Part shown: one piece after another, positions 156 to 20,693 of the stretch
Layout: each line of letters starts with the position of its first letter
How positions within the stretch are numbered: position 1 is the first letter of the stretch
Source of the DNA: Pigoraptor vietnamica
Taxonomy: Eukaryota; Opisthokonta; Filasterea
Assembly (NCBI GenBank): GCA_943704525.1
Contig: CALSCQ010000751.1
Coordinates: 1-20,693 of the forward strand
DNA: 20,693 nt
Direction of reading: 5' to 3'
The notes under the pieces: generated by a model
Told to the model about the DNA's origin: nothing
The model's database searches: none
What the model saw: the letters and a program-made list of their open reading frames with translations, nothing else
Made by a program: the position numbers and the translations under genes

Positions 156-3100
156 CCTTTTTGACGAGAATGCCGGACACTTCCTGGCCGTCGACCGGCG
201 GCTTGGCTGCAATCGAACCCATCGCCTGCGAAGCAGAGGGTGAGACTCACAGACCCAATTCACAGACAGCCCTTCATGCTAAAATAATGTCGCGTGTCGA
301 ATGCAACGACGCCGGTGAACACATAAGGGAGCGCCGCCTGAAAACACACGAGCAGCCGACCCCTCACCTTCGCCATTTTCTCCCCGCGAAAGTTGAGCTC
401 GACCGACTGGCAATTGGAGGGGTTGTGCAGCGCGAGCTTGTAGTCCTCCCGGTCCTCGTAGCGCTGGCGAAGGGCGTTCTTCAGACTGTGGAGACGGAAA
501 CGACGAACACGCGCATGTGAGCCCAGTGAAATCCATCAGAGCCAAAATGGACGTCTTGTCCATATTACGTTCAGTCGGCGCCGCTTAGAAACACAACACC
601 CTTTGCTTGCCACACAAAAAAAAACGCACCGTCCCATTTCGTTTGAGTCGCCGTGCACAAGGACGACGTTGGGCGGGCGCAGCGTGTCGATGTACTCGCT
701 CGTCTGCATGAAGTCCGAGTGCGCGCTGAAGGAAATGTAGTGCACAGACATGTTGAGGTGCAGCTTGCGACCGCTGAGCGAATTGACCTCCTTCGGGGCA
801 GAGAGAATGTGCTGCGCAGGCGAAGGCCAGCCAATGTCAACAACGGCGGGTAAAGGGAGTAAAGCAAACAACGGCGGAAAGAGAGCAAAGGTAAACAACG
901 GACCAATCTCCAATGCAGGCATGGCACAGCATGGAGGCCGACTCACCTTCGCAAGGGTGCCCTCGACCGAGTAACCAGTGACAATGCACCCGTTACGCCT
1001 GTCCTCGCACCACAGCTCAAACAGTTCGCGACTGAGGCCGCTCTGGAGCATACCGGGACTCGCCATGACGACAGAGGGTCTGCCGGGGACACAAGCGTCA
1101 GGGCCGTCGTATCAACGTGCGCGTCCACGCAGGACACAATAGAACAGCACATATAGTATGCCCAACGACCAGACACATTGATGGCAAACATCCAAGAGTC
1201 CAAGGACGTTAAAGCTAAAAACAAAGGCCGAAGGTGTCCAGCCACACACCCACCCGACATCGTCAAACTGATCCATGCCGCGGAGGCTGCTGATGTGCTT
1301 GAACACGAAGGGATTCGAAATGGCGAATTGCCTGTGCGCGCGGAAGGGGCGTTGGGTCAACACAGCACAACGCAGACGCGCGCCCTCACGCACCACCACG
1401 CAGTGACACAACAGAGGAGCGAGGAGAGGAACAATGTGAGCACAAAATAACTGAGAGTAGAGAAGAGAGCCAAGTTGTCACTCCCATGTCCCAGCAAGCA
1501 CCCACTTTCGGATGCGGTCGTTCATGTGGTTGATGTACGTCTGGTACACCGACATGCACTTCTTCGCAAGCGACGACGCATAGTAGATGGGGATGCTGTG
1601 AAGCTGCGCGGGAAGGGTGGGGATTAGCGGCGGACAAGGCTCTCGCCAACAAACATCCACGCACACGATAAAGAAAAATCCCGCAAACACGCACACGCTG
1701 CACACACTACGCACGCACACAACACAACATACCTCGGGGTGCGCCTCCCAGTACTCGTCGAGGATGAGCAAGAGCTCCTGCGCGCGGCCGAGCGCAAACA
1801 CGGGCAGGAGACACCGCCCTCCGCGGCTGACGATGTCATGCACAAGGCCCGTGAAGCGCCCCTCGCGCTCAGCACGGGGCTCGTGAATCTGCGGAGAGAA
1901 GGGGAGAAGACAGAAATTAGGGGTGATTTGCAAGGTAAAATTGCTGACGGTCGCGTGCTATCAGACTGCGGGAGGCGCGTGCATGCATGCGGGTGCATGC
2001 TGTCGTGGCTCTCCATGCATGCCGGTGTGCGCGTTTGTGTAGGCGTGCATTATATGTGCGTGCTGTGTGCGCGTTGTGCATGTGTGCGTGTCTTGCATGC
2101 GTGTGTGCATCCGTGCGTCCGTGTGCCCACCTGCACGCCGTACGTCGACTCGACAATGAGAATGTCCGGCACAATGTCCGGGATTTCGGCTGCCATCAGA
2201 TGGCGGTCCTCCTGTCGCGAGAAGTCGCCCGTGTAGAGCACCTGCGGAGGGTTGCGCGAGTGAGCACGAAGGCGCAGGATCACAAGCCACGCGATGCAGC
2301 GCATGTAACGCACATCGAACGAACACATTACATAGCTTCCAGTAACAAACGAGTGAGAAGAACTTATCCCTCCTGCCACCCGTGCACAGTGCATTGCAAT
2401 TTCATACATTGCGAATAAGAATAGCCTATCCGTACTCGCGCAATTGCAGACGCACTCACCCTCACGCCCGCAATTTCAATCATGAACATGCACGCGCCAA
2501 GCACGTGCCCCGCATTGTAGCACCAGAACTTGACGCCGTCGATCTGTGGACACGGAAGGGCCGACACAAAAGTGGTCAGGTCAGCGTGTGGGCGAAGTGC
2601 GGGATAGTGCCGTATCTCATTTTCACGCGGCAATGGAATGTGAGTGCGGCGGATGATCGAATGTGTGAGTGCGTGGGGCGTTTGCGCGTGTGTGCGTGTG
2701 CAGGTCGCGATCGTGCGTGGGTATGCGCGTGCAGGTCGCGAGTGTGCGTGGCAGCCACCTCCTTAATCTGGTGCGTGTCGACCGTCTCGATCTTCTCCAT
2801 GCTTCGGTCGAGGTCCTTCTCGTCGTAGAGCATGTCCTCCACGGAAATGTTGCTCACGCGCACGTAATCCGAGAGCATCCACTTGTAAATGGCCTGCGTG
2901 CGTGCGTGCGATTTGTGTGCGTGTGTGTTTGTTAGTATGTGTTTTGGGTGTGGAGTGAGTGTGCGTGTGTGAGAGTGCGTGTGTGAGTGTGCACGCATGC
3001 GGTCCGCGCGATTAGTGTTTGTGCAAAGTGTAGTTGCGAGAGCACAGTGTGTCGGTGTGCGTTGTGTGAGAGAGAACGAGAGAGTGTGTGGGGGTGAGAG

Positions 3101-3864
3101 AACGCTCCCACAGTTCACGACGGCTTTTCATAACATGAGGTTTTGAACTAACATACGAACGCACACAGCACACAACAGAAGACGGTGGGGCTAAGAGGCC
3201 TGATGAAACAGGCACATCCCACACACGCCACACGCAGCGCACCTTCGTCGGATGTGTCATGAACACGCGCCCCTTGAACGTCGTCTTGTTGAGAAAGTAC
3301 GGAAGGGCGGCGCAGTGGTCGAGGTGGAAGCTGACGAGCGCAAGACAGGCAAAGGGTGAGCGCAGAAAGAACACAGCACAACTAATTCAGAGAAATAAGA
3401 TCCAGGGAGGGGGGGGGGGGGAGAAAACAACTATGCCCTTATGCATTAGGCCCATTATTGTGAGTGCGACTGCGACTGACGACCCACTGGCTGACAAGCA
3501 GGAGGTCAATCTCTTCTGGGTCGATTTCGTCGAAAAAAGGGAGAGCGGCAAGGCCAGTGAAAGCGGGATGGATGCCGCAGTCAAGCTGCATGGGGGAAGA
3601 AAGGCACGGACGGACAGATGCACGCTGTGAGAAGATGCAACGCAGGATACGCCTTCTTTCGCCGATGTAATCACGCACGCAAGCATAACACGCGCACACA
3701 CACACACAGACACACACAGACACGCATGCAGGCAAGCACGCACACACACGCACACGCACGCACGCACACACGCACACACGCACACATGCACACACACGCA
3801 CACACGCACACACACACGCACGAACACACACGCACACACACACGCACGAACACACAGACACACA

Positions 3865-3908
<44 letters not shown>

Positions 3909-3926
3909 CACACGCACGAACACACA

Positions 3927-3979
<53 letters not shown>

Positions 3980-4124
3980 ACACACACACACACACACACA
4001 CACGCACCATGATCTTCTTGCCCTTGAACTCGAGCATGACGCACGATCGCCCGACCTCCTGCCCACCGCCGAGTGGCGTGATCTTGAGAATGTCGTCTTC
4101 GTCGTCGTGCTTTCGCTTCGACAT
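156..4124 (-). CDS. CPSF3: CPSF3/CPSF73, cleavage and polyadenylation specificity factor subunit 3 (3' partial)
   Basis: This is the zinc-dependent endonuclease of the metallo-beta-lactamase/beta-CASP family that cuts pre-mRNA before polyadenylation in the nucleus. Thirteen exons were built: 4124-4008, 3585-3488, 3330-3243, 2893-2759, 2543-2460, 2241-2131, 1888-1733, 1603-1506, 1331-1254, 1079-947, 811-630, 485-368, 225-156. They give 489 residues of a protein usually near 680; the C-terminal domain lies beyond the left edge. From memory of the human enzyme, all zinc ligands are present at one residue offset: HFHLDH at 72-77, His159, Asp180, His397, His419. The sequence starts [11 protein letters not shown] and continues into [10 protein letters not shown]; this ATG has A at -3. 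[24 protein letters not shown] and [16 protein letters not shown] distinguish it from INTS11. It is head to head with SGF29. Every donor is GT; twelve of thirteen have G at +3. Confidence 0.95.
2000..2130. repeat. TG/CG-rich low-complexity tract in CPSF3 intron 6
   Basis: The plus strand is an alternating GT/GC/CAT purine-pyrimidine tract that runs up to the donor of CPSF3 exon 6 (2131). The coding strand therefore reads CA-rich. It is non-coding: the frames through it give only His/Thr or Cys/Val runs. Confidence 0.7.
2896..3092. repeat. GT-rich microsatellite-like tract in CPSF3 intron 3
   Basis: This stretch is degenerate GTGTGC/GTGAGT repeat on the plus strand. It fills most of the 349-nt intron between exons 3 and 4 (3242-2894) and touches the acceptor. 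Nothing else is recognisable in the intron. Confidence 0.7.
3409..3421. repeat. G13 homopolymer in CPSF3 intron 2
   Basis: Thirteen G on the plus strand, read as C on the transcript, lie within the 157-nt intron between exons 2 and 3. It is a short slippage-prone run. Confidence 0.85.
3691..4007. repeat. long (CA)n / (CACG)n microsatellite filling CPSF3 intron 1
   Basis: About 315 bp of CA-dinucleotide repeat is interrupted by CG, AG and ATG units. It occupies most of intron 1 (4007-3586) and begins at the donor itself, so the coding strand reads GTGCGTGTGTGTG from the splice site. The long Cys/Val and His/Thr open frames across it are artefacts of a dinucleotide repeat having no stops. The alternating purine-pyrimidine run could adopt Z-DNA; that is inference. 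Confidence 0.92.
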
Positions 4125-4409
4125 TTTAGCGCTAAGAGGGAGAGCTCCCCCCTCGTCACAACACAACAACACTTATAGCGAAAAGAGTGCCCAAACGAAA
4201 AGAAGCGCGATTTCAGTGGTGTCCTTGTGATTGTACTCCCCCGCCACACAACTCACATGGGAAGTAACAGTTGTTACGACATTTGGGTGGAGGTAGGGTG
4301 AGGGTCTTCTCTCGTGGATGGGTGTGATGTGCGGTGGGGGTTGTGGCGCACAAAGGTTCAGCAGAGAAGACTAGATTTCGTAGCGCACGTGCCTTTGACG
4401 CGAGTCGAA
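4125..4409. promoter_or_regulatory. shared bidirectional promoter between CPSF3 and SGF29
   Basis: These 285 bp separate the two divergent start codons. On the minus strand CTATAAGTG (about 4171-4179) is TATA-like, 47 nt before the CPSF3 ATG. No TATA is seen for SGF29, but CACGTG lies at 4386-4391, about 20 bp before its ATG. An inverted repeat GTAACA-GT-TGTTAC sits at 4264-4277 near the middle and could bind a dimeric or MYB-like factor. Transcription starts are inferred. Confidence 0.6.
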
Positions 4410-6361: not shown

Positions 6362-6677
6362 AACACAGAGAGAGAGAGTGTGTGTGTATAGCCGCAGTAA
6401 CAGCTTATGTGAATACATTCATGCGAATGTATGAGGTGGTGGCTGTTACGCCCGTGCATTGGGCACGTCATGGGTGGGTGTTACATCGGCCGATCATGGC
6501 GATCGAAACCGCACCCGCACGAGTGTGCGACATCTATAATCGCTTTAATCGTTTCATTCCCTCGCTTCAAAGACCCTCCTTTTCACGCCGATCTTCGTTT
6601 TTCTCTTCGCTCTTTTGCCATTGTTCTCCGATCTCACGCCAGCTTCGCCAAAGCTTCTTCTCTTCTCCCCCATCGTG
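6362..6677 (+). other. SGF29 3' UTR / helicase leader spacer with nested hairpin
   Basis: These 316 bp hold no gene. A compound inverted repeat is present: outer arms GTAACAGC (6397-6404) and GCTGTTAC (6442-6449), inner arms ATACATTC (6413-6420) and GAATGTAT (6425-6432) with an ATGC loop. All arms pair perfectly. It begins about 35 nt after the SGF29 stop, so it most likely sits in that 3' UTR as an RNA structure. No AATAAA is visible. The rest, about 6540-6677, is C/T-rich and probably the helicase 5' leader. Confidence 0.6.
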
Positions 6678-9382
6678 ATGGACGACCCTGGCAGTAGGAC
6701 ACCCACCAGCGCCCCGAAGCGGCGCCGCGTCGACGAATCCGGCGGTGGCGACGCAAACGCACGCCCTCGCTCCCATGGCGATGCCTTTGGGGGTGCCGGA
6801 CGCGGCGGACGGGGTGCCGGACGTGGTGCGCCAGGGGGCGGAAGGGGTGGCGGACGTGGCGGACGCGGTGGTGGCGGCGGCGTACGCGAGTTTCGCCCGC
6901 AGGCGCACGATCACTCCATGGAGGCGCAATCGCATGCGCACACGGGTGCACAGCCGCAGATGCAGAGGGCTCCGGTGGCTGCGCCTGCCCAGCGAGCCCC
7001 TGCGGAGGCCGTGAGGGCGCAGGGGGGCAATCCAGCTCACGATGAGCGCACAACAGACTCGCCATCGGCGCCGCCGAAGCGCCGCCGCAATCGCCGTCGC
7101 GGAAAGCGCGCGGATGGCACGGGGGACGCCATGGAGGTGGACGGGGACGAAGGCGAGGACGGTGAGGTGGACGGGGACGGCGATGTCGCGATGGCCCCTG
7201 CGGATGGCGCGGCTGGGCCGTCCGCTCCGGCGCCGCGCGGTGCGACCGCGACGGGCACATCGGGCACGTCTTCCATTCATCTCACGACGACGACATTCGC
7301 CAGCCTTCCGATTTCGCCGCTGTCTGTGCGCGCGCTGGAGACGGTGCTTGGGTATCGGTTTCTGACCGAAGTTCAGCTGGCCACCCTCCCGCACATCATG
7401 CAGGGGAGGGACGTCCTCGCACGTGCACGCACGGGCACGGGCAAGACACTCGGCTTCCTCATCCCCAGCGTGGAAAGGCTGCTCGCGTCTCCTCCCGCGC
7501 GCGGCGATATTGCCGTGCTCGTGCTGTCTCCCACGCGCGAGCTGGCCACGCAGATCGCGACGGAGGCGGCTGCTCTGCTCAAGTTCCACTCGTTCGGTGT
7601 GCAGTGCGTGTACGGCGGGACGAACATTGCGACGGAGCGGCGCAAGATGAACTCTGAGCGGTGCGACATTCTCGTGGCAACGCCCGGTCGCCTGACGGAC
7701 CATCTCGAGAACACGGAGGGGCTGCGGGGACGCCTCAGCCGGCTCAAAGTGGTGGGTGTCGTGGTGGAAGTAATGGAGAGCGTGCATGCACATACGCATA
7801 TTCGCCTGCACACGCGCTCTGAGGCGGGGGGGGGGGGGGGGGGGGGGGGGGGGGAGTGGGAGAAGGGAGCGGTAGCGTGCAAGAGCAATATTCTGAAGCA
7901 TGCACTTTCTAACCCATTTGTTGTCTGCGCCACAGCTGGTCCTCGACGAGGCCGACCAGCTGCTTGAGATGGGCTTTCGCCCTGCGATTGAGCGCATTCT
8001 GTCGCTGCTGCCCAACGGCACGGCGACCGGCCGACAGACGCTCCTCTTCAGCGCGACGATTCCGCAGCAACTGCACCAGGTCGCGGGGCTCTGCATGCGC
8101 ACCGACCGCCAGTTTGTGGACACTGTCGGCGAGGAGAGCGTGCACACGAACGAGCAGGTGCGAGAACCCTTCCCTTTTGCTAGTACACGTCCTGTGCCTC
8201 CCTCCGTGCCGCACAGGCACACACGCGCGCGCATACCGCGCACTACTGCTGGTCGCACACGCAACCACAGTGACGCTGTTGCCGTCCTCCTGCGTTACCC
8301 ATCTCGCCCATTCTCCCTCTGAGTCGACTAACATGTCTGTAATTCAAGCTGATCCGACATGGCTCCCTCCGCGTGGCAGGTGGTCCAGTCGTACGCGGTC
8401 GTTCCCTTTGAGACGCAGATCCACGCGGTGATGGAGCTGGTGCAGGCCGAGCGGCGCGATCCCGGGCACAAGATCATCTGCTTCTTCACCACGGCGCGCC
8501 TCACGCAGTTCATGGCAGAGCTGTTCAACGCCGCGGCAATCCCCGTGCTCGAGATTCACTCGCGCAAGTCGCAGGCGCAGCGCACCAAAGTGTCCGACGC
8601 ATTCCGCTCGTCCGCCCAGGCCATCCTCTTCACGAGCGACGTCTCGGCGCGCGGCATCGACTACCCTGACGTCACGCTGGTGCTCCAAGTCGGTGCGTGT
8701 GAGCGGATAAGGCCACTTTTATACGTTAACATGCTTTCCCGCCGGTTCTGGGCCCTTCGTGCCTTGTTTCCCCCCGCGTTTGTCGTCCGTGCGTGCGTTT
8801 GCTGGCTTGTTGGGCTGTCTACTGCCAGCCATTCTGACATCCCCTCTCGTCCACACACACACAGGCATTCCGTCTGACCGCGAGCAGTACATCCACCGCG
8901 TGGGTCGCACAGCGCGCGCCGGCAAAATCGGACGCGGCGTCCTCGTCCTCGCGCCGTTCGAGCGCTTCTTTCTCCGCCACATCGCCGACCTTCCCGTCAC
9001 CGAAGCGCCGCCGATCACCGTGACGCCTCAGACGACCGCGGCGGTGGCGAATGCCCTGCAGCGCCTCTCTCCCGTCGTGAAGGGCATGGCGTATCAGGCG
9101 TGGCTCGGGTTCTACAACTCGTCGCGCGGGACGGGATGGGACAAGCCGACGCTTGTGCAGATGGCGAACCACTTTGCGGCACTTATCGGGTGCGACTCGC
9201 CCCCGCCGCTCCTCGCAAAGACAATCGGTAAGATGGGACTCAAGGGCGTCCCCGGCCTTGTCGTGGACAGGGGACAGGCTGGATGGGGCGGCGACGGAGG
9301 GCGCGGAGGCGGCGGCGGCGGAAGGGGCCAGGGGCACGGTGGTGGCCGCGGGGGCCGCGGGGGCGGTGCCGGCATGCGATAG
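6678..9382 (+). CDS. DEAD-box ATP-dependent RNA helicase, Mss116 / plant RH25-RH31 type, with RGG-rich ends
   Basis: This is an ATP-dependent RNA-unwinding or annealing protein of 708 residues. Exons are 6678-7751, 7936-8157, 8380-8692 and 8865-9382. Motifs in order: Q-motif Gln near 233, ARTGTGKT (250-257), PTRELA (284-289), TPGR (335-338), DEAD (362-365), SAT (397-399), TSDVSARG (from 517), HRVGRTARAG (547-556). IHSRKSQAQRTKVSDAFR, DYPDVTLVLQVG and LVLAPFERFFL match the Mss116/RH31 group rather than eIF4A or DDX18. The N-terminus has no evident mitochondrial presequence; it carries PKRRRV (13-18), RGG repeats (about 39-71) and a second basic cluster (about 131-146), suggesting nuclear or nucleolar work. 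The C-terminus (about 677-708) is again RGG-rich. Intron 1 contains G29. The ATG has G at -3 and +4. Precise orthology is uncertain. Confidence 0.93.
7826..7854 (+). repeat. G29 homopolymer in helicase intron 1
   Basis: Twenty-nine uninterrupted G on the transcribed-sense strand lie in the 184-nt intron between motifs Ib and II. As RNA this could form a stable G-quadruplex. The reported length is also liable to sequencing error. Confidence 0.9.
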
Positions 9383-9734: not shown

Positions 9735-12497
9735 CTAGTCCTTGACGGTCCGTGTGAAGTCCATCCGTGCAAAGCGCGTCGCAATCGCATCGGGGAAGTC
9801 GAGGCTTGCGAGGAACAGCGTCATCGCGCGGATAATCGTCTCTGTGCGCTCCTCGTGAGGCATGGCGCCGCAGTTCTCCACCTGGAGGGCCACAGCAAGA
9901 TTCAGCACAATTGCCATGGCGAGACCAAAACACACAGGCTGAGCACGATTGCCATGTCCCAGAGGGTTGTACCAACACCCGAGGGATGAATTCCGAGCAC
10001 GTGACACAAGAGACACGCGACGGGACATTTGCGCGAAGGTCCAACGGAGGCGGAGGCGCACCTTGTACAGCTGGGATAGCGCGGGGTTGAGGCACGAGAG
10101 CGTCGCCTCCGCCTCGGCAAATCGCTCGTTCGAGAGCTTGCCGGCAAAAATCATCGTCTTGAAGCTCGGGTTCATGCCCTGCACGTTGGGCGTCGAGCTT
10201 CCCGTCGCGAGCGTGTTGCTGACGCTCATGCGGCGGATGCTTTGATCGACGCGCGTCCTGCGAGGGTGAAGGGGGGAATTGCGCCAGGTCCGTCAGGAGA
10301 TTGCACCAGGGACAGATAACAGATAAGTCAGAGAGAAAGGTGCACGCATGATATGCGCTTTCACATGCACGCACACACGCGCACACATTCACAAGCGTAT
10401 GCCCACCCACCTCATCTCCGCAAGCTGTCCCGTAATGCTGTCACGCCTGTGGCCGAAGCGGGGCGAATGCAGCAGAGTGAGAAATTGGCATGGGACCCCC
10501 GACTGGCATCCCACTGCCACACAGTGCATGCCGCAGACACTCTTTACGCACATCGCGCTTCCGTGCTGTGCGCGTTAACTCACCCCGCAAACGCCTCGAC
10601 GAATTTTGCGACGTTCGTCGGCTTCATCCCTTTCATTATTTCGCTCCGGCGGAACTCGCCCAGATCAAGGCCACGCGGAGACTGCGCGCAAACGGGCGGA
10701 AAGAGAGTGAGCGATGCAGCAGGTCAATGTCACACGTGAACGCCATTAGCCACGGTTGCCATTTTTTCTGACCCAATATGTGAATTTGAGACGAGAAAAT
10801 AAAGGTGGGCACACGGACGGAAGAGAGTGAGCGCCGCATACGACACGTGGACGCCATGCGCTCTGCTTAGCCAAATTCTATCTGGCCAATATATGGATGG
10901 GCTTCCTCACCGAGCCGTAATATCTGTCGATGAATGTGTTGACGTTGCCGAGTGTGAGGCCCCAGCGGTAGAGATTGTACACGGCGATCTAAACGAAACC
11001 GCGTTACGTTAGTTGGCGCAAGCACATACACACACAAACGAGCGCAAGCCGCCCCCTTCCCCCCCCCCCCCCACACACACACACACACCCATCACACACA
11101 CTCACACACACACACGCATACACACACACACGCATACACACACACACATACACACGCAGGCGCATGCGCACGATAGCAATTATCGCTGCCGGCGCACCTT
11201 CGTTGGCACCCAGTCCAGCCAGCTCACACTACCGACTGTCGGCGAGACGAGAAGAAGGCCATGCACCATCTTGGGGTGCGCCGCCTTGGTGAGAGAAGTC
11301 AAGAGAACGTGTGAGAAGGGCAGGTCTGCGCGATGCACGCTTCACGCAGAACGATAGTCGTCACGTGAGGCGATGCTGCGTACCCCATAGCGCAAGAAAA
11401 TGTTGGCTCCCGCTCCAACGCCAAAACCGACAAACTTTCGGATGCTGTAAATGGAAGTTGAACAGGATATGGGACTATAAGGGCAAGAAGGCTGACACGC
11501 AAACCCAACACGCACGCACACACATATACGCCCACATGCACACAGGACGCGCGCGAACACATGCGGAGCCCGCACTCACTGGAAGTGGTTGACGACGGAC
11601 GTGATGAGCTCCGACAGCTGAGCCATCGTGGGATACGACGCACTGCGGCAAAGGCGGAAGCGCAGTCAGTTAAGTGCACGATATCAACGAAAAGAAGTGG
11701 CGTCGCTTCGAAGGGAAGCGTTAGGGAACACAAAACGCGAGGTCGCGGAAGACCGAGGATATGTCGCGATAGAGAGAAGGCTAGAGTGGACAGTAATCTG
11801 GCTTGCGCACGTAAGCCACGTGTGGCTGACACAGCTGAGAGCATTGCCCCCACGAGTCCACGACAGGTCACGTGAGAAGGGAGACACGCACTTTGCGTCC
11901 ATTTCAGCAGCGCCTTCCTCGTGGCCGGGTGCATCGATGTGGTAGATGACGAACGATTCGACGAGGTCACGTGCGCTCGGGTGGTTGATGAAGCGGCCAA
12001 AGCAGATTTTGTCTGAACGCGGAGGGGGTTTGGAGAGAGAGGATAGGGGTGTCAGTGTGTTTGTATGTGTGTTTGTGTGTTTGTGTGCGTGCGTGCGTGC
12101 GTGCGTGCGTGTGTGTGTGTGCAAATGTCCCTGACTGCGTGGTAGTCAACGCCAAGAGAGAGGCGAATCAGAGGGGGGATTCAAAAACGACGAGAAGCAA
12201 CCCACGGTTCAAGCCAATGTCATGGAATGTGATCATGGCGGGTTTGTATCCGTCGGCCTCTCCCTGTTGGCACAGAATGGCGCATGAGAACGGGAAGTGG
12301 AGAGGAAAACGCGCAACAACAGACACGCACACACACGCACACAGACACACAGACACACACACACAGAGACACACAGACACACAGACACACACACTCAGAC
12401 AAACACAGACAACATACCGCACGCGCGCGACACACACAAGCGGCCACTCTCCCACAAAACACACAGACACAACTAGACGCACACGCACAGACACACC

Positions 12498-12535
<38 letters not shown>

Positions 12536-12841
12536 GGTTGCAAAGCACAGCCGGCGAATTAGTACACGCACCTGCACGAAGACCTTAATCTTGCCCGTCA
12601 TTGTCTGCACAACGACCTCCTGAAATGGCACACGACGTCAGCGACAACCGCACGCAACACCAGTGAATGACTTTGGTGCGCCGGAAACAAATCGAGATTC
12701 CCTTTCCGTTCAAATTCGCAAAGCGCAAGTACCCGCACGCACCTTCTCCATGGGAAGGGGCGGCAGAGTGGAGTCCACCTTGGAGAGTGCGTCAATGTTG
12801 ACGCTCATGAGGGTCGCGGGGACCGTGCCCTCCGACGCCAT
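9735..12841 (-). CDS. NDRG: NDRG-family protein (N-myc downstream-regulated, alpha/beta-hydrolase fold)
   Basis: NDRG proteins are cytosolic, stress-linked, non-enzymatic members of the alpha/beta-hydrolase fold. Twelve exons: 12841-12743, 12619-12572, 12263-12206, 12012-11892, 11642-11580, 11444-11384, 11284-11198, 10988-10911, 10681-10584, 10446-10411, 10257-10062, 9881-9735, giving 363 residues (family about 340-390). Diagnostic stretches are ITFHDIGLNHK near 59-69, IYHIDAPGHEEGA near 91-103, VGFGVGAGANIFLRYG near 135-150 and LLLVSPTVGSVSWLDW near 159-174. The nucleophile elbow reads GVGAG instead of GxSxG, so it is predicted non-catalytic, as in animal and plant NDRGs. The Ser/Thr-rich region near 271-285 could take phosphorylation like the NDRG1 C-terminus; that is inference. 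Introns carry CA/TG microsatellites and a duplicated block. It is convergent with the helicase and divergent from gene A. Confidence 0.92.
10693..10897. repeat. imperfect tandem duplication (about 90 bp twice) in NDRG intron 8
   Basis: Copy 1 (10693-10783) and copy 2 (10814-10897) share, in the same order, CGG(G/A)CGGAA.GAGAGTGAGCG, then CACGTG(A/G)ACGCCAT, then TAGCCA, then CCAATAT. They fill nearly all of the 229-nt intron between exons 8 and 9. On the transcript the shared GCTCACTCTCTTCCG block is the pyrimidine tract, and copy 1 leads into the real acceptor at 10684-10682. It looks like an ancient duplication of the 3' half of the intron. Confidence 0.75.
11059..11157. repeat. C14 run followed by (CA)n in NDRG intron 7
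   Basis: Fourteen C (11059-11072) are followed by about 85 bp of CA repeat with CG/AT interruptions. The coding strand reads TG repeat then G14. It lies within the 209-nt intron between exons 7 and 8. Confidence 0.85.
12052..12122. repeat. GT/GTGC repeat in NDRG intron 3
   Basis: (GT)n, then (GCGT)n, then (GT)n on the plus strand, so the coding strand reads CA/ACGC near the acceptor of exon 4. This is opposite in orientation to the tracts in introns 2 and 7. Confidence 0.85.
12322..12532. repeat. CA/CAGA microsatellite in NDRG intron 2
   Basis: CA repeat with regular AG interruptions (ACACAGAC units) occupies much of the 308-nt intron between exons 2 and 3. It ends in a nearly pure CA run at about 12495-12531. 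No gene lies here. Confidence 0.85.
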
Positions 12842-13503
12842 TTCAGTCTCTCGCTCCTTGGCGATGTCCACTGAGAGCGGTGAAATGCTACCACACTATA
12901 TGTTTTATGTTCTGCTACAGAAAGTGAGCTCTGCACGAGGGGCGCAAGGGATAAGAGAGGAGAGAGAAGAGAGAAGAGAGTTCGCTTTCGCCTACGGACG
13001 AGAGAGAGTGTGCTGCAGTGCTGAGCGGCAGTGTCAGTTTGCGGCCGGGAATACGTCGGCATCCGGACACTATCGGCTGAGAGGTGTCGACAAATTGAGA
13101 AATTGGCGAAAAAGACCAAAGTTTTCTTCAAATTTCAATGAAAGTCTATATCAATGAGAGAAATAATCATCACGTGATAGCACGTGCCACCAAAGGGATT
13201 TCGACCGTCTGAACACCCCGGATTCAACCCTCAAGTGCGCAGCAGTCTGTTAACTGTTTTAATTATTTCGCTCCCCAGAGACTATCAAAAATGTATTGCC
13301 GATCGGTTTTATTTTACGCGCGAGCCAAAAGCGATGACGTAGTTTCGCCGCTGCACAGCTGACGCGCGTGCTGGGGACACAAGAAAGTTCTATTGACTCG
13401 CCACACGACTCGCGCGTGCGTTGTTTTCAGTATGCGTTTTGTATGGCGCCTCAATTTGACGCCACTCTTGGAAGATTCTCTTGGGTTGCCCCGCACACGC
13501 GAG

Positions 13504-13536
13504 CATAAAAGCGGCAACGCATCGTCAGTTCAACTC
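13504..13536 (+). promoter_or_regulatory. probable core promoter of gene A (TATA-like plus initiator)
   Basis: CATAAAA at 13504-13510 lies about 20-26 bp before initiator-like pyrimidine-A motifs (A at 13527 or 13532). The implied leader of roughly 120 nt has no upstream ATG. A similar CATAAAA box serves the divergent NDRG gene. The start site is inferred. Confidence 0.45.
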
Positions 13537-13539
13537 TGC

Positions 13540-13557
13540 AATCAGATTAATCTGATT
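13540..13557. promoter_or_regulatory. perfect 18-bp palindrome in the gene A leader
   Basis: AATCAGATTAATCTGATT is its own reverse complement over all 18 bases. It starts a few bases after the inferred transcription start. It could be a binding site for a dimeric regulator, perhaps an autoregulatory one, or a hairpin in the 5' UTR. Confidence 0.6.
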
Positions 13558-13651
13558 TTCGATTCGGACGGCGTTTCACAAGTGAGACCGATCGACGAGC
13601 CGTCTTTCCGCCGACGACTTTGAAGAGACGATAGCACAAGACTCCGCAAAG

Positions 13652-15229
13652 ATGGGGGTGCCCCCACAATTTCCATTGGACATGCGGCGGTGGGTTACTT
13701 TCTAACCCACCACACCACTGACATATGTCAACGACTAGCGCCTTCAGTATACAATTTATCCAAACTGACACACCATTCCTCGCGATAGGATCTTGTGCAA
13801 GAAGGGTCAGCGCACGAAGATTGCGAAGCGAGGGCACGGCAAAAAGCGCTACCGCGTGCGTGACGGGATAGGATGGACACCCGATGGGGCGTTCCTTGCC
13901 ATCCTGCGCGACAAGACTGAGCGCGGTGAGCACTGCACACAATGTTGTTGCCCACGAGGCCGTTATGGAAGCTCATTTTCCCGAGTGACTGCTGCAGGCG
14001 AGCAACTCATCAAGCGCATTCAGACACACATTGGCCTGCGCTCCAAGTTCAACAGGACGAGCCTGAACACCAACATGCGTGCGTGGGGATGGACCCCCGT
14101 GAAGGGGATCAACCCGTTGACGATGCTATGGCCCAAAACTAAGTGGAAGTTCACGCGGAAGGGGGAGGCGCGGTGGACGTACTGGTTTCACCCTCTGGTG
14201 TCGCGCGACCACCAGGAAGCCCTCGGAGAGCCCGGTGTCGACGGGCGCGAAGACACGCCTCCCACAATCAAGCGGGTTCCCGCGGCGTCGGACGGCGACT
14301 CGACCCGCCGCCGCCCGAAGGCTGTTGAGGTGCGTTATGCTGACGAAGAGCGCTATCGAACATTCCACCTCGGAAGATTATCTTGTCCTTCGGTTCATTC
14401 GCTCGTCCAGTCTTGCTTTCCATTGTACTGAGTGCCGTCATTACCACACGCAGGATGCTCTCCTCGAGTCTCTCTCCGGCGCGCACAACATCCCCGCCGT
14501 GCGCAACGCTCCTGCCGCGATCGACACGCCCGCCAGCAACTTCATGATCGACCAGTGGGCACTCGACGGCTCCAGCGCCGTTCTGAGAAACGAGGGCATC
14601 GGCAGCGATCCAAACGTCAACAGCGATGCGGCCGTCGACGACTCGGACGTCGAGAGCGAGGGGGATGACAGCGATCTCTCCTCAGTGGCTGGATCGAACA
14701 GCGATGAGGACGAGGACGCGTCGATGGGTGACCACGACGATTCGCCGGTGGACTCTGTGCCCTCGACTCCCCTGTCGTGTGGCAAGCCGGGCAACGATTC
14801 CTTGCTTCCAGCGCCAGGCGGACAAGGTAGAGTTGAAGGGAATGAAATTGTCGAAGCTGTGAGTGACACATGTGACGCAGGGCCATCGCTGATGTGACTT
14901 GCTCACCATTCCCGCTCATCTATGCAGTCGCCGTCGGCATCGGACACGACAGCAGCCAGCCACTCACTGACGCGGGCCAACAAGTCGTCGTCTTCAACGA
15001 CGTCATCACTTTGGGCAAGGGGGTCGGCGATGTTGTGAGAGCCTACCATTCCGTTCTCACGGACGACACGGGAAAGGCACCCGACTTTGCCAACACGCGA
15101 CTCCACGTGATCGTGAACATTTTCGACGAAGCGCCGGATTCCTCGGGCGTTTCTGAAGAGGTCTTGTCCGGTCTAGAGCAATTGTTCCTTACGGAGTACC
15201 GCGTCCACGTTCACTTCCACAAGCTCTGA
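13652..15229 (+). CDS. gene A: HSF-like winged-helix family protein (paralogue 1)
   Basis: No named gene is recognised. Exons 13652-13689, 13789-13925, 13998-14329, 14454-14826 and 14928-15229 give 393 residues, with junction phases 2, 1, 0, 1. Residues 17-37 are very basic, nuclear-signal-like. Residues about 36-134 resemble an HSF-type DNA-binding domain: VRDGIGWTPDGAFLAI, then SLNTNMRAWGWTPV where HSFs have the recognition helix SFVRQLN.YGF, then KWKF and a WTYWFHPLVSRD block like the HSF H..F.R end. Residues about 170-290 are disordered and Asp/Ser-rich, possibly an activation region. The last exon matches the last exons of genes B and C. Exon 1 was chosen for its ATG (A at -3, G at +4) and a phase-2 donor that matches B. 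Intron 2 (72 nt) is in frame without stops, so retention would add 24 residues. The exact end of exon 4 is the weakest boundary. Confidence 0.62.
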
Positions 15230-15620
15230 GCCTGCCGATGGCGGAGAAACAACGGCACCGCTCGGTTCCACGCGTAATCTGCGCACAAACATATGTATAA
15301 CAAACGATAATCTCCTAACTACGCCTCGATTTTGCGCTCGCTTTCATTCGTGCCTTTTTTTTTTGGAAATACATTTATATCTTCACGAAAGAACTCTGTC
15401 CAAAGAAAAAACTCAACCTGCCACACACCGAAGGAGTGATGTATTGTGCAGAGTTTTGCCTGGAAAATAACGCCGCGCTGAAAAGACACGCGCCACACAA
15501 ACATTCCACATTAACATCAAACGACCACACGCACACTGCACGCTGCGATGAGACTCCGAGTGGCCCGGACCCGACCGGTCGAGAAATCTTCTAGCTGGGC
15601 TTCGCAGATCGGACCTGGCC
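15230..15620. other. convergent intergenic region, gene A 3' / gene B 3'
   Basis: These 391 bp lie between two stop codons and are more A/T-rich than the surroundings, with T10 at 15355-15364 and ACATTTATAT after it. They are presumably the two 3' UTRs. No gene, canonical AATAAA or strong hairpin is seen. Confidence 0.55.
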
Positions 15621-17485
15621 CTACGTCGCTCGTGGCTTTCCCTTGCGGTCGATGACCACGTTCTCTGCGCGAGCGGGAGGCTCCCTGTTAACAGGGACGG
15701 CGTTCGCGTGCGACGCGTCGCCGGAATTGGCAAGTTTGACGGACTCGAACGACAGCATCGATTTTGAAAACGCCTCGAGATAGTCGTCCGGGCCCGCATG
15801 ATTGCGCGCGTGCTCCGCGGACGCGATGCCGGCTTGAAGTGGACCGAGAGGGAGGAGGCCAAAGCCTACTCCAGGGAAGCGCCCATTGTCGAGGTGATCC
15901 ATCCACGCTGCGAGGTCGGCAGAGCACATACATTAAGTGCATGCGCGTGTGATGCAGACAAGTACAAAGTTACATAACTTCACTGCGAGTACATGACACG
16001 CGATAGGCAAAGAACCCACCGCCGTAGTACGAGTCCCCGCCGTCGGACTCAATGTGCACGTCAGTCATCAGAGGCTTCAGAGGCTGCGCGGAAGGACCAG
16101 CACTGTTGATGTAATAGAAAACGCCGACCGCAGCGTCGACCGGAGCATAGAGCACATCAGGCTTGATGGCACCCTGCATGTCCTGTGAGCGGGAAGGGAA
16201 AAACAAATTAAAATAATCAAAATCAACTGAATACATTCATAAGTAAGGACCTGCTGTCTTGCCAGCAGTGACACGTTCACAACAACTGTTCTCACCGGCG
16301 CAGTGTCATGGTCGTGCGTGTTGTGGTTCGGGTTCTCCGCAACAGCAGCAACGTGGGGATTTTCGGGATCGCAGTACACGTCGCGGAGCTCTTCCACATC
16401 GCCGGCGAGATTGAGCCCCTCGGCCGGCGGCAGTTGAAAGTCCCCGTTGAAGTTGATGGGCGCGTTGTTCATGCGGTTGAGCGCCTGTGAGCCGCGCACG
16501 TTAAATGTAGGTATACGCGCAAATCAAAGTTGTTTCATCGCGAAACCTTCTCAGTCCGCCTGTTAATCTACAGTACATGCTACGCACTCGGACAGGCCAG
16601 GCCTCAAGACGACAGCGCACCTCGTTCAGCTTCACTCGGGTCTGCCGTTTGGCCGGTGGCTCGTCGGCGTCACCGTCGTCCTCGTCACGCGGCCGGCGGC
16701 GGTTGTTTTGCAGGTCGGCCTTTTCGCGCACGATCGTCGCCTTCCGCCGTGGGCTCGTGATTCGTCCACGAGCATCAAGCTCTTCGAAGCGGCCCAGTGC
16801 GGCGCAGTCGTCACGCTTGACCTTTCCCAGCGCGTGCCAGAAGTACGTCCAGTGTGCTTGGGCGCGGTTGCCGATGGATGACATGAATTGCCACCCGCCC
16901 CAGACGCCCGGATCGGTCGTAGTGTTCTTGACGTCCGTGACCTCGACAAACCCCCAATTGGCCATGTGCGTGTTGACCGTCGCCTTCGTCCACTGCACAG
17001 CAACGTCCTCGGGAACGAGACCGCGTTCGACGATCACCTGCATTAGGCGTCGAAAGAGTGCGTCGGCTGCGGAGGGACGAAGGCGCGCGAAGAGGCACGT
17101 AAGCCGAAGCATTTCACAAGCGTTGTGTGCAATTCAAATTGCTGCATGCACACGAAAGAGGAAAGAGACCACACGAAAGGCAAAGACCCACCAAAGGCCC
17201 TGTCGCGCACAATGGCGATGAACAGGCCATCGGGACTCCACCGCAGGATGTCGCGAACAAAGTATGTCCTGCCGTTCTCGTAGAGACGGCCATACTCGTC
17301 TTCGATTTGGCCGAGCTCGATGTCCTGGATCGCCTCGTTCAGTAGTCTGCGAGAGCACATTTCGTAGCGAACCAAAATTTAGGCGTAGTCTCATATTGCA
17401 AACCTGAGGTGCGGAGGCAATTCCCACAAAAAAAGCGCTCGGTCGTGCCCATGTTCACTTACCGCGCAATAACCAGGGGATACAT
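15621..17485 (-). CDS. gene B: HSF-like winged-helix family protein (paralogue 2)
   Basis: No named gene is recognised. Exons 17485-17463, 17346-17192, 17066-16621, 16484-16296, 16182-16020 and 15907-15621 give 420 residues; phases are 2, 1, 0, 0, 1. It starts MYPLVIAR and its first donor is the only perfect GTAAGT in the window. Residues 38-59 (VRDILRWSPDGLFIAIVRD, then RAF) match the strand-turn-strand opening of HSF DNA-binding domains, where WSPDG is usual. Residues about 89-102 (TVNTHMANWGFVEV) fit the recognition-helix position. HWTYFWH followed by KRDDCA closes the domain near 130-145. A basic, acidic linker follows (RRRPRDEDDGDADE, PPAKRQ), nuclear-signal-like. The C-terminal exon begins in phase 1 with AW and contains FGLLPLGPL, like gene C. 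A DNA-binding regulator is inferred from fold resemblance only. Confidence 0.65.
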
Positions 17486-18588
17486 TCTCGGTCGTCACTG
17501 GCCGTTGCCGAAATGGTATTAGCGGCCGCAGACATTAATGCTGCAGCCGGGGCGGTGGATCGTGCACGCGCTGGTTTCTCCTGCGAACCCTTTCCACGGT
17601 GTCAATTACTGAAAAAACAGAAAGCAAACGGATGGCCGTACGCCCGCATCTCGCAAGAGGTTCTGTTGCGCATATGGACAATGCTGAAGTAGAGAATCGA
17701 CGTCGTAAACGGAAAAGGAATGTAAACAACATGCGTGACACTCACAGTTACAGCAGCAGCCCCGAGTGCTTGGCTGGCCGTGCGGCGACTCGGATCGGTT
17801 CTTGAGTTCGTTCACTGTCAACGTCCAAGGGCGCTGTGGCGGAGACGGGGCGATGTCGCAAGTTGGACTGCCTTGTGTGCACACGCCGCGCTGTTGCACT
17901 TGTACTATTGGGAGAGAGAGGCGAATCCCACTGGCAGTCACGAGGGCTGACGTCTGTTTCGCCGCAAACTGCCATATTGAGCCCATACTGACCAGCCCAA
18001 CCAATGGGAAGCTGACGCAGTTATTTTTTGTGAGCAATTGTATTGAATTGTATGAAAATTCGCTTTATGTGGCACCCACCAATCAGCTGCATCAGTTTTG
18101 TTAACGGCCCCCGTGATGTCACGTGAAGGTTGGGTTGCGGTGTCCGAGTAATCACGAGTCCAGCGTGCCGGGAGTTCAAAGGCGCCATATATATACGACA
18201 AACTCTGTACAGCCGGGACGCCCGTACTGAATTGAAGATCGCCAGATGTTTGTAACTCTCCGGTGCCGGCACCACTGCGCGGTTTCCGTTCAGACTGATT
18301 TCGGACCGATGGCTGCTACACTAGCGGCCACTCAGTACTAGAGCGCCTGCTTTCGATATGCGCACATGCGGTGCGCATTTATTATCGGTTACAACCATAT
18401 CAAGTCCGGCAGCGAAAGAAAAAAATAACTGCCGCGAAGCCTGACGGCACGACACATACGACGGACGACACAACAACGATTCTCAATCCGCAGCCGACGC
18501 ACGCCGTCAAAAAAAAGCACGGGCGTTGAGCGAATTAGAGCAGTGCTCAACACCCGTGAAGAAAAAAGTAGGAGACGCAGCAGCATTT
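17486..18588. other. 1.1-kb intergenic region between genes B and C with unassigned promoter-like signals
   Basis: No exon is supported here. The B-proximal part should hold the B promoter; an upstream ATG at 17535-17533 opens an out-of-frame 26-codon uORF that overlaps the B start. Farther off, CCAATCAG (18079-18086), TCACGTGA (18119-18126), CGTGA-TG-TCACG (18112-18123), TATATATA (18188-18195) and the 12-bp palindrome GGTGCCGGCACC (18262-18273) cluster within 200 bp. Read on the plus strand they would drive a transcript with no gene but a 31-codon ORF (18246-18341). Confidence 0.5.
18188..18195. promoter_or_regulatory. TATA box candidate
   Basis: TATATATA lies in otherwise GC-rich DNA, 109 bp after a CCAATCAG box on the plus strand. 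It is symmetrical, so direction is undecided: plus toward an unassigned transcript, or minus as a distal start for gene B, whose ATG lies about 700 nt away. Confidence 0.4.
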
Positions 18589-20598
18589 CTAGCTCTGGTC
18601 CTTGGCCGGACGCTTCCCCTTCGGATCGTAAGCAACCTCGTCCGCACTTCCACGACCACCCGCCCCTCCCTGATCGTTGCCGCCCTTGTCGTCATGCGAC
18701 TCGTCCGCCGGTTGCGTCTCGACAGCCGTGCCCATTGCGACGACCTCGAAAAGCATCCGCGCGCTTTGGTTGAGCACAACGTCCTCCGTGTTGGCGTAGA
18801 AAAGGAGCATGGCCTTGAGCTGGAGCCACGTGGAATTGGTGAAGTCCGGACAGATAAGCTGGACGCGTGCGAGCAGCTCGTCGAGCGAAATGACGCCGAA
18901 CCGCCAGAGGGGAATGAAGTTCATCGAAAGGGCGACTTGCCACGCTGCGGGAAAGAGAGACATTAGTCATGTGTGCACTGTCCCTGGGAACCGCGAGTCG
19001 ATACACGGCACGTCCGCATCAAGACACACAGCGGGACACAAGCGACAATGCGGCGTACCTTCGTAGAACATACTGCCGCCGTCGTCGACGACGCGCATAT
19101 CGCCGCGGTCGGACGAAAGGCCGATGTCCATGCAGCCGAAGTACCTGTTTTCATCCAAGGGCTCGCTGAAAAACGTAAGTCCGTGAGCGTCAGTCGAGTC
19201 GAGGGAGATGGACCCACGCGCCGTCGTGTCCCCAGTATCGGTGGAAGGGCCAGCGCCGGCATGGTCGTAAAGCGGTGAGGCGCCGCCTTGATCGAAAAGT
19301 GCCGCGACTTCCTCGCTCTGCAGAGCAGACAAATTCTTTTATGGGTTGCATGCACGCACAGCTGTCTGCAGCACAAATTGCCCGGCAGGCCACACAGACA
19401 ACAACATAACAAGCCGGAACGCACCGACGCAAGCTCGTTGACGTCCATCTCGTCAGCGCCCAAAAGCAAAATCTGTCGTCCGGTCCAAGGAACTTGCGCG
19501 TATTCGAGAGTCGCGCTGCTTAATGCAACGAAAGATAATGGACTGGTGAGCGTTGGTCAGAAACGGACCATCCCAAGCGTCTGCGGAAGCTTGCTCTGCA
19601 CTCAACGCAACCTCCGTACCTCTCCTCCGACCAGGGCGTTGGGCTTGCCTCGACCACAGAGGCAGGCTCGGCCGGTGCGACAGGCGCGTCATTGGGACGA
19701 CGTTGGACGCCAATCGCAGGCGATTCGTCGCGCGTGGCATCGGCCGATGCGTTCGTCTGTGAAGGGCTAGCCGCATTCGAAGAGTTACTCTGCGCAGGAC
19801 AAGGTCACTTGTCAAATCCAGCCCAAACACCGCAGTAATGGATGTAATAGCGCGCACACGTGCACGCAAAACCCACCTGATTAGTGCGCCTCTTCTTAGG
19901 CGCGGCCGGCGAGTTGTCGCCAGCGCTGCTGGGGCCCGCTTCCTCCAGCGGGCGCTTCTTGTTGTGCGAGGACCCCAAGCGCACAAACACTTTGTCGTTG
20001 CGTTCTCGCCACGCAGTAATCTCGTGCCCTTCGTATGTCGTGCGCGGCATGCCCATTTCCGCGCAATCGTCACGACATGCCTTCCCCGATTCGTGCATGT
20101 AGTAAGTGCAGCACTCGTCTTCATCGCCGTTGCCGCCGTCGGTGTTCGAATTCGGCTCTTCGTCGACGTCGTCGGCCGCGACCGTTTTGAATTGATAGTA
20201 CTCGAGGTTCCGGTTCAGTGAGTCTTTGTTCGTCACTTCAAACTTGAGGCCGAACAGGGCCGCTAACATCCCGACACGCTGAAGAAGCCCGGCTCCTGCG
20301 TCGTGCGGGATGGTGTAAAACAGTGCATCATTGGGTTCCGAGCTGAGCACTGTCACCAAACAATGGAACGAATGTCGAGTGGGACGCCACATGGACTCGT
20401 CCGAGTGACCGGTTACACTGAAAACACTCACCGAAGTCCTTGTTACGAACAACGACGATGAACTTGCCGCCCCTGCTCCACCGGATGAGGTCTCTCACCC
20501 GACATTTCTCCCTCTTGACGACTCGGCGCCTGTTGGCACCGCCAGTCTCGTACTCGACTGTTCCGAGCTCCATGTTTTGTATAAAGGGCAACAGGAGC
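18589..20598 (-). CDS. gene C: HSF-like winged-helix family protein (paralogue 3, 5' partial)
   Basis: No named gene is recognised. Visible exons 20598-20432, 20349-19877, 19789-19620, 19515-19425, 19317-19059 and 18944-18589 give 504 residues plus stop. The first exon, expected to be short and to end in phase 2 as in A and B, lies beyond the right edge. The opening (VRDLIRWSRGGKFIVVVRN, KDF), SLNRNLEYYQFKTV and TYYMHESGKACRDDCAEMG align with gene B. Between the last two lies a long Asp/Glu-rich insert where HSFs have the wing loop. After a Ser/Pro/Ala linker, the DDGGSMFYE-AW junction mirrors DGGDSYYG-AW of gene B. The last exon carries FGVISLDELL and CPDFTN. Phases are 1, 0, 2, 0, 1. The 19619-19516 intron (GTACGG...AAGCAG) is the least certain. 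B and C look like a tandem duplication. Confidence 0.6.
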
Positions 20599-20660
20599 CT
20601 GGCGGCAGGAAGTGATCGACGACAATGAAAGGAGATGCGCCGAGGCGTTAGTGCAGGAAT

Positions 20661-20693
20661 GGGGGGAGAGAGAGAGGGGGGAGGGGGGGGGGG
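20661..20693. repeat. G/GA-rich right edge
   Basis: G runs separated by GAGAGA end the window in G11. It lies in the intron before the first visible exon of gene C. Like the left edge, this is a probable assembly break. Confidence 0.8.

Follow-up and report, generated by a model that had tools for sequence, protein, structure and literature searches.

To our knowledge, helix 3 of the heat shock factor (HSF) DNA-binding domain, with its SFVRQLN core, is nearly invariant across eukaryotes, and it is likewise so in the HSFs examined here. In human HSF1/HSF2, Arg71/63 is invariant and Asn74/66 conserved; of these residues of HSF1, Arg71 forms a pair of hydrogen bonds with the GAA guanine, while Asn74 provides a solvent-mediated contact (PMC8379338). 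Large HSF families are also on record, as in the diatom Phaeodactylum tricornutum, for which PMC4827209 gives 67 HSFs, counted by transcription-factor family classification, and factors of other kinds can carry HSF-type domains too. The present work concerns three multi-exon genes, A, B and C, located at the right end of a 20,693-nucleotide contig of the filasterean Pigoraptor vietnamica (contig C296 of a 32.5-Mb assembly of 1395 contigs; "the window" below means this whole stretch). The eukaryotic origin of the contig shows in its split genes and in what lies next to them; searches with an exact rRNA pattern and for 5.8S rRNA gave 0 matches. Profile-level homology and gene structure agree in making it very likely that the family of the three genes derives from HSF genes of this lineage, and A, B and C are probably lineage-specific nuclear regulators that bind DNA with altered specificity, as monomers or with partners.

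Gene A lies on the plus strand, and genes B and C on the minus strand (Table 1). The original prediction had placed a cluster of three paralogues of an HSF-like family at 13652..20598, and both the cluster and its limits hold, the coordinates running from the ATG of A to the edge of the first visible exon of C. The blastp matches are far above chance (A-B 1e-15, B-C 6e-13, A-C 2e-4), with the top local alignments for A-B and B-C extending over approximately the first 190 residues, and the core positions of the three proteins are conserved at about 25-30% identity. The genes also share an identical order of intron phases, 2, 1, 0, across the domain and its tail; every modelled intron is GT-AG, and the frames close with zero internal stops. 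When 12600-20693 was searched for DNA repeats with seeds of 14, none reaching 30 bases appeared, which gives the duplications an old look. The first sequence motif proposed for the family, beginning VRD.I.W, is matched exactly by A and C, whereas B has VRDILRW, with Leu replacing Ile; the spacing of 8-10 residues given for the closing motif was loose, the distance from H to RD being 4-6 as read from the sequences. A genome-wide count of members, also proposed at that stage, gives six or more, spread over three contigs: genome searches with the family proteins added D and E, both on contig C903, and F, on contig C1231. The figure is a minimum because the searches score best candidates only, exon by exon. 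Weak matches on C1114, C358 and C914 (E values of 0.03, 0.1 and 0.9) were taken as chance, the stretch on C1114 being without the family pattern by eye. Outside the domain, two C-terminal features are shared by eye: the motif GAGPSTDTG, in C, E and F, and a terminal DRKGK/DPKGK tail, in B, C, E and F; Pfam gave nothing of note for this shared C-terminal region. The shared motifs and tails argue for homology extending past the domain.

Two of the members outside the window have features of their own. Member E, on the minus strand of C903 (L031) at 1413-3841, is strongly diverged, the core Trp and Gly in its strands 1-2 having disappeared; it retains the phase-1 intron at strand 2 and the shared C-terminal motifs, and it may be degrading or specialising. 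Several KKR(R)-like clusters with Asn/Pro-rich spacers between them are located in the same gene at ~2700-3600 on the minus strand, as if a nuclear-localisation-like segment, comparable to SPAAPKKRRTNQ of C, had been multiplied. Member F, on the minus strand of C1231 (L044), has at ~3301 an apparent GC-AG intron at the conserved strand-2 position, in which an exonic G is followed by GCAAGT.

The relation of the family to HSF is seen most clearly at the profile level. A profile of A, B, C, D and F was compared with 177,635 PDB sequences and the matches were listed at E <= 10; HSF-type proteins occupy ranks 1-13 of the 14 sequences, with a best E value of 1.8e-4, and no other winged-helix family occurs in this listing. 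Twelve of these 13 matches are named heat shock factors. The first-ranking one, 5d5w, is named 'Putative transcription factor'; it is a fungal HSF-type transcription factor, presumably Skn7, aligned from strand 1 towards strand 4. Its alignment contains SFVRQLN, so that, unlike the family, this protein has kept the canonical helix. The DNA-binding domain of human HSF1/HSF2 aligns over strands 1-2 and helices 2-3. When F is left out, the four-member profile still gives HSF-type proteins at ranks 1-13 of 19 (17 of 19 overall), with a best value of 0.0029. Against six of the genome's own canonical HSFs, hhalign reaches a probability of 95.2% over 55 columns (E 2.5e-8, for a single comparison). 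In a Pfam scan of A, B, C, a 168-residue piece of D, and F, HSF_DNA-bind, whose cut-off (gathering score) is 22 bits, is the sole match of the D piece (E 0.0017, 19.3 bits, profile positions 15-92 of 100) and the best match of C (0.0081, 17.1 bits), both being sub-threshold. The scan matched no family in A and B, and the DUF4123 (E 0.012) and Acetyltransf_1 (0.12) matches of F were rejected as below the cut-offs.

A hidden Markov model (HMM) was also built from eight canonical HSFs of the genome and used with 2000 shuffles per member, some of them unreported by the program; A, B, C and D outscore every reported shuffle (1352, 1415, 1383 and 1856 reported, respectively). Homology of the DNA-binding domain is thus detectable at the profile level, and individually for A-D, not for E and F. 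A tree of A, B, C, D, F and ten HSFs (126 columns, midpoint root, E and the HSF at C1297 omitted) separates the two groups by one long branch at 100/100, with the bootstrap incompletely settled. The resemblance to the HSF DNA-binding domain claimed in the original prediction, for which a profile comparison had been put forward as the check, is borne out by that comparison and most likely reflects true homology, and hhalign, Pfam and the intron phases agree with it. The further suggestions made there, of lineage-specific transcription factors or of a DNA-binding family that lacks heat-shock specificity, are inference.

The canonical HSFs of the same genome are the nearest standard for gene structure. 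PF00447 gives 14 exon-level matches in the genome, all above the cut-off, which were grouped into 11 HSF loci; the three contigs of the family are missing from these matches. About 11 canonical HSF loci are many for a eukaryotic genome of such size. They resemble the family in domain order, in the core I-W-S-x-x-G and in the intron phases at strand 2 (six loci) and helix 1 (where examined), and differ from it in scoring above the Pfam cut-off and in possessing an SFVRQLN-type helix 3. In six of the 11 loci an intron in phase 1 separates strand 2 from helix 2, located at codon 16 from the core Trp in five and at codon 17 in the sixth. The corresponding intron of the family has the same phase and lies at codon 17 in B, C and D, 18 in A, and 19 in F, the last accompanied by a two-residue insertion and a GC donor; the offset from the HSFs is 0-1 codon in B, C and D and 1-2 in A, 0-2 overall. 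The acceptor of the helix-1 intron is in phase 2 in all five family members and in all four HSFs checked.

A departure from HSF is found in helix 3. In the alignment, the position of HSF1 Arg71 is occupied by Thr in A and B, Arg in C and F, and Lys in D, that of member E being too uncertain to read. At the position of Asn74, A has Arg, B Ala, C Glu, and D and F Thr, so the Asn is lost in five of five, and the pair Arg71/63 and Asn74/66 described for human HSF1/HSF2 (PMC8379338) is kept in none of the five members. By contrast, the guanine-reading Arg is present, by eye, in all 11 canonical HSF loci, one of which, at C1037, has His at the Asn74 position. The SFVRQLN core had been described in the original prediction as rewritten, which these residues confirm. 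It had also described the wing of C as expanded, and this claim fails: the loop from helix 3 to strand 4 has 27 residues in A, 32 in B, 26 in C, 9 in D and 10 in F, and after this measurement the wing of C was rejected as a defining oddity. Nor are long wings peculiar to the family, since the canonical HSF at C500 has a wing of ~38 residues by eye, with 9, 16 and 18 residues in three other canonical HSFs. What sets the loop of C apart is its acidity (10 of 26 residues). The linker between helix 1 and strand 1 is longer in the family.

The same residues bear on the strongest rival explanation, namely, that the HSF-derived domain no longer reads DNA and that A and B at least are now protein-binding modules. 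The rewritten helix 3 and a long acidic or Trp-rich wing would then form a binding face for protein contacts, the proteins acting, for example, as antagonists of the canonical HSFs or as chromatin adaptors. The replacement of the guanine-reading Arg by Thr in A and B, the disappearance of the conserved Asn from every aligned member and the acidity of the wing of C, which disfavours DNA, all fit such a function, and the HSF wing is already used for protein contact (PMC8379338). However, the Arg is kept in C and F, D has Lys, and the linker of A is strongly basic, and we consider the loss of DNA reading rather unlikely.

Canonical HSFs and the family also differ in what follows the domain. A simple heptad measure, no replacement for a coiled-coil predictor, was applied to A, B, C and F, and gave scores of 3.0, 3.5, 3.0 and 4.5 (shuffle p of 0.26, 0.085, 0.47 and 0.04, respectively), whereas in the three canonical HSFs tested the heptad repeat that follows the domain is strong, with scores of 5.5, 6.0 and 7.5 (of 8). 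By this score, an HSF-like coiled coil (the HR-A/B heptad repeat) was not found in A, B, C or F.

If A, B and C are DNA-binding regulators, as preferred here, the following course of events may be proposed. An HSF gene of this organism's lineage would have duplicated, giving rise to a small gene family that includes the three genes. The HSF-type winged-helix scaffold, comprising helix 1, strands 1-2, helices 2-3, the wing and strand 4, would have been retained together with the exon structure; new C-terminal regions would have been added, the linker from helix 1 to strand 1 would have lengthened, and the HR-A/B trimerisation coiled coil would have been lost. The proteins would bind as monomers or via other partners. 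Helix 3 would still enter the major groove, with base contacts altered: C, F and perhaps D, through its Lys, could contact guanine, and A and B, with Thr, would be unable to do so in the HSF way. Because of the altered base contacts, the targets would be other than ordinary nGAAn arrays, and with the DNA-reading part rewritten, these genes probably control different genes in a different way. We give an even chance to the fuller history, in which an HSF lineage turned into regulators without trimerisation and without heat-shock-element reading, acquiring new base contacts on an HSF scaffold, with Arg, Lys and Thr intermediates present in one genome.

A number of observations weigh against this interpretation. 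The 13 PDB matches come from a handful of proteins and, being redundant, are not independent; the hhalign match spans strand 1 to helix 3, with the wing and strand 4 outside. The Pfam HSF cut-off is passed by none of the five members scanned, and A, B and F have no Pfam HSF match whatsoever. The margins obtained with the HMM of the genome's own HSFs are small (A 7.0 vs. 5.3, B 8.9 vs. 4.9), and F and E do not rise above the shuffles, 191 of 1614 and 969 of 1792 reported ones, respectively, scoring as high. As to gene structure, the strand-2 intron is absent in five of the 11 HSF loci, and the helix-1 intron precedes the core Trp by 36 codons in B vs. 13 in the HSF at C497, so that the two positions are equivalent only if the longer linker of the family is an insertion; moreover, the donors in the gene models were partly picked among several GTs using consensus and phase. 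A simple pattern resembling a nuclear localisation signal is located after the domain in C and F, in the linker only in A, and nowhere in B, and F, whose heptad stretch scores highest in the family (4.5, p 0.04), may self-associate. Two AlphaFold2 models were made from window sequence only, with alignments of three to five rows. Model 1, of A with its in-frame intron read through and pieces of B and C exons added as rows, has a mean predicted local distance difference test score (pLDDT) of 44.8, too low to judge the fold, and a Foldseek search with this low-confidence model gave 59 matches, none at E <= 0.001, and no HSF among the best 50 of the 59. Its element order, strand-strand-helix-helix-strands, at that same low pLDDT, fits a winged helix. 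Model 2, of B exon 3 with A and C, has a pLDDT of 56.3, which is likewise too low for a judgement on the fold.

The possibility that these genes are decaying HSF copies, i.e., pseudogenes or nearly neutral relics of a past HSF expansion, is suggested by the high divergence, by member E, where the core Trp is gone together with a large part of the domain pattern, and by the GC-AG intron in F. In neutral copies so diverged, however, stops and frameshifts would be expected, whereas the frames of A, B and C are intact over 5-6 exons with GT-AG splice sites, the core positions are still conserved at the identity given above, and C-terminal motifs far from the domain are common (by eye) to B, C, E and F; decay is therefore very improbable. 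Least probable of all is a winged-helix family unrelated to HSF, its likeness being convergent, an explanation that the sub-threshold Pfam scores and the low confidence of the structure models would allow but that sits badly with a PDB-wide search headed by HSF-type proteins at ranks 1-13 of 14 and listing no other winged-helix family, and with intron phases that match those of the genome's canonical HSFs, the position agreeing as well for the second intron.

Table 1. Gene models of the HSF-related cluster in the window, with examples of canonical HSF loci on other contigs (contig:position).
Feature	Position	Strand	Content	Basis
Gene A	13652-15229	+	five exons, 393 amino acids	
Gene A exon 1	13652..13689	+	MGVPPQFPLDMR; start of helix 1; ends in phase 2	splice model
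Gene A exon 2	13789..13925	+	basic linker, strands 1-2 (YRVRDGIGWTPDGAFLAILRD); ends in phase 1	
Gene A exon 3	13998..14329	+	helices 2-3 (SLNTNMRAWGW), 27-residue wing, strand 4 (TYWFHP); Thr at HSF Arg71 position	helix and strand names by analogy with HSF
Gene A exon 4	14454..14826	+	acidic, Ser-rich	
Gene A exon 5	14928..15229	+	C-terminus including stop	
Gene B	15621-17485	-	six exons, 429 amino acids	
Gene B exon 1	17463..17485	-	MYPLVIA; ends in phase 2	
Gene B exon 2	17192..17346	-	rest of helix 1, linker, strands 1-2 (YFVRDILRWSPDGLFIAIVRD); ends in phase 1	
Gene B exon 3	16621..17066	-	helices 2-3 (TVNTHMANWGF), 32-residue wing, TYFWHA, basic tail; Thr at HSF Arg71 position	
Gene B exon 4	16296..16484	-		
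Gene B exon 5	15993..16182	-		
Gene B exon 6	15621..15907	-	C-terminus, last residues VIDRKGKPRAT	
Gene C	18589-20598	-	six visible exons, 504 amino acids; first exon beyond contig end	
Gene C first visible exon	20432..20598	-	rest of helix 1, linker, strands 1-2 (CRVRDLIRWSRGGKFIVVVRN); preceding exon off contig	
Gene C exon	19877..20349	-	insertion before helix 2, helices 2-3 (SLNRNLEYYQF, Arg71 position kept), 26-residue acidic wing, TYYMHE, PKKRR cluster	
Gene C exon	19620..19789	-	low-complexity spacer	
Gene C exon	19425..19515	-		
Gene C exon	19059..19317	-	LYDHAGAGPSTDTGD, motif common to members E and F	motif by eye
Gene C last exon	18589..18944	-	tail YDPKGKRPAKDQS; tails of B, E and F alike	likeness by eye
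Canonical HSF loci (examples)	C497:30522-30719, C822:18332, C611:28724, C1243:3019, C1297:5094			

The remaining part of the window carries other genes. A split gene at 536-4172 on the minus strand has beta-CASP and RMMBL exons (Beta-Casp E 2e-8 and 4e-11, RMMBL 8e-11) and contains a long GT/CA-rich microsatellite stretch; we take it to encode a CPSF73-type mRNA 3'-end endonuclease. A DEAD-box RNA helicase with glycine/arginine-rich stretches at both ends is encoded at 6615-9382 on the plus strand (DEAD 1e-29, Helicase_C 2e-15). It is followed at 9738-10229, on the minus strand, by an open reading frame with a sub-threshold match to the PSMD12/CSN4 N-terminus (E 6e-4, 19.9 bits vs. a cut-off of 27), perhaps a subunit of the COP9 signalosome or of the proteasome lid.

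Set beside the diatom HSF expansion (PMC4827209), the present case is alike in that an HSF-type family seems to have grown in one lineage. It differs in that the diatom proteins are recognised as HSFs by classification, whereas the members described here are sub-threshold in Pfam. A literature search at the level of listings, covering open-access papers, with most subscription papers outside its scope, found no paper on such a family. Within that open-access literature, an HSF-derived family lying below standard detection, with a key contact changed, seems to be new. This suggests that transcription-factor counts using standard cut-offs can miss HSF-derived genes. With the intron pattern kept, the scaffold probably kept too, and the residues at the key contacts changed, the family offers a natural experiment on the re-targeting of a strongly conserved DNA-binding domain; if the interpretation proposed here is true, evolution would have re-targeted a DNA-binding domain that ranks among the most conserved in eukaryotes.

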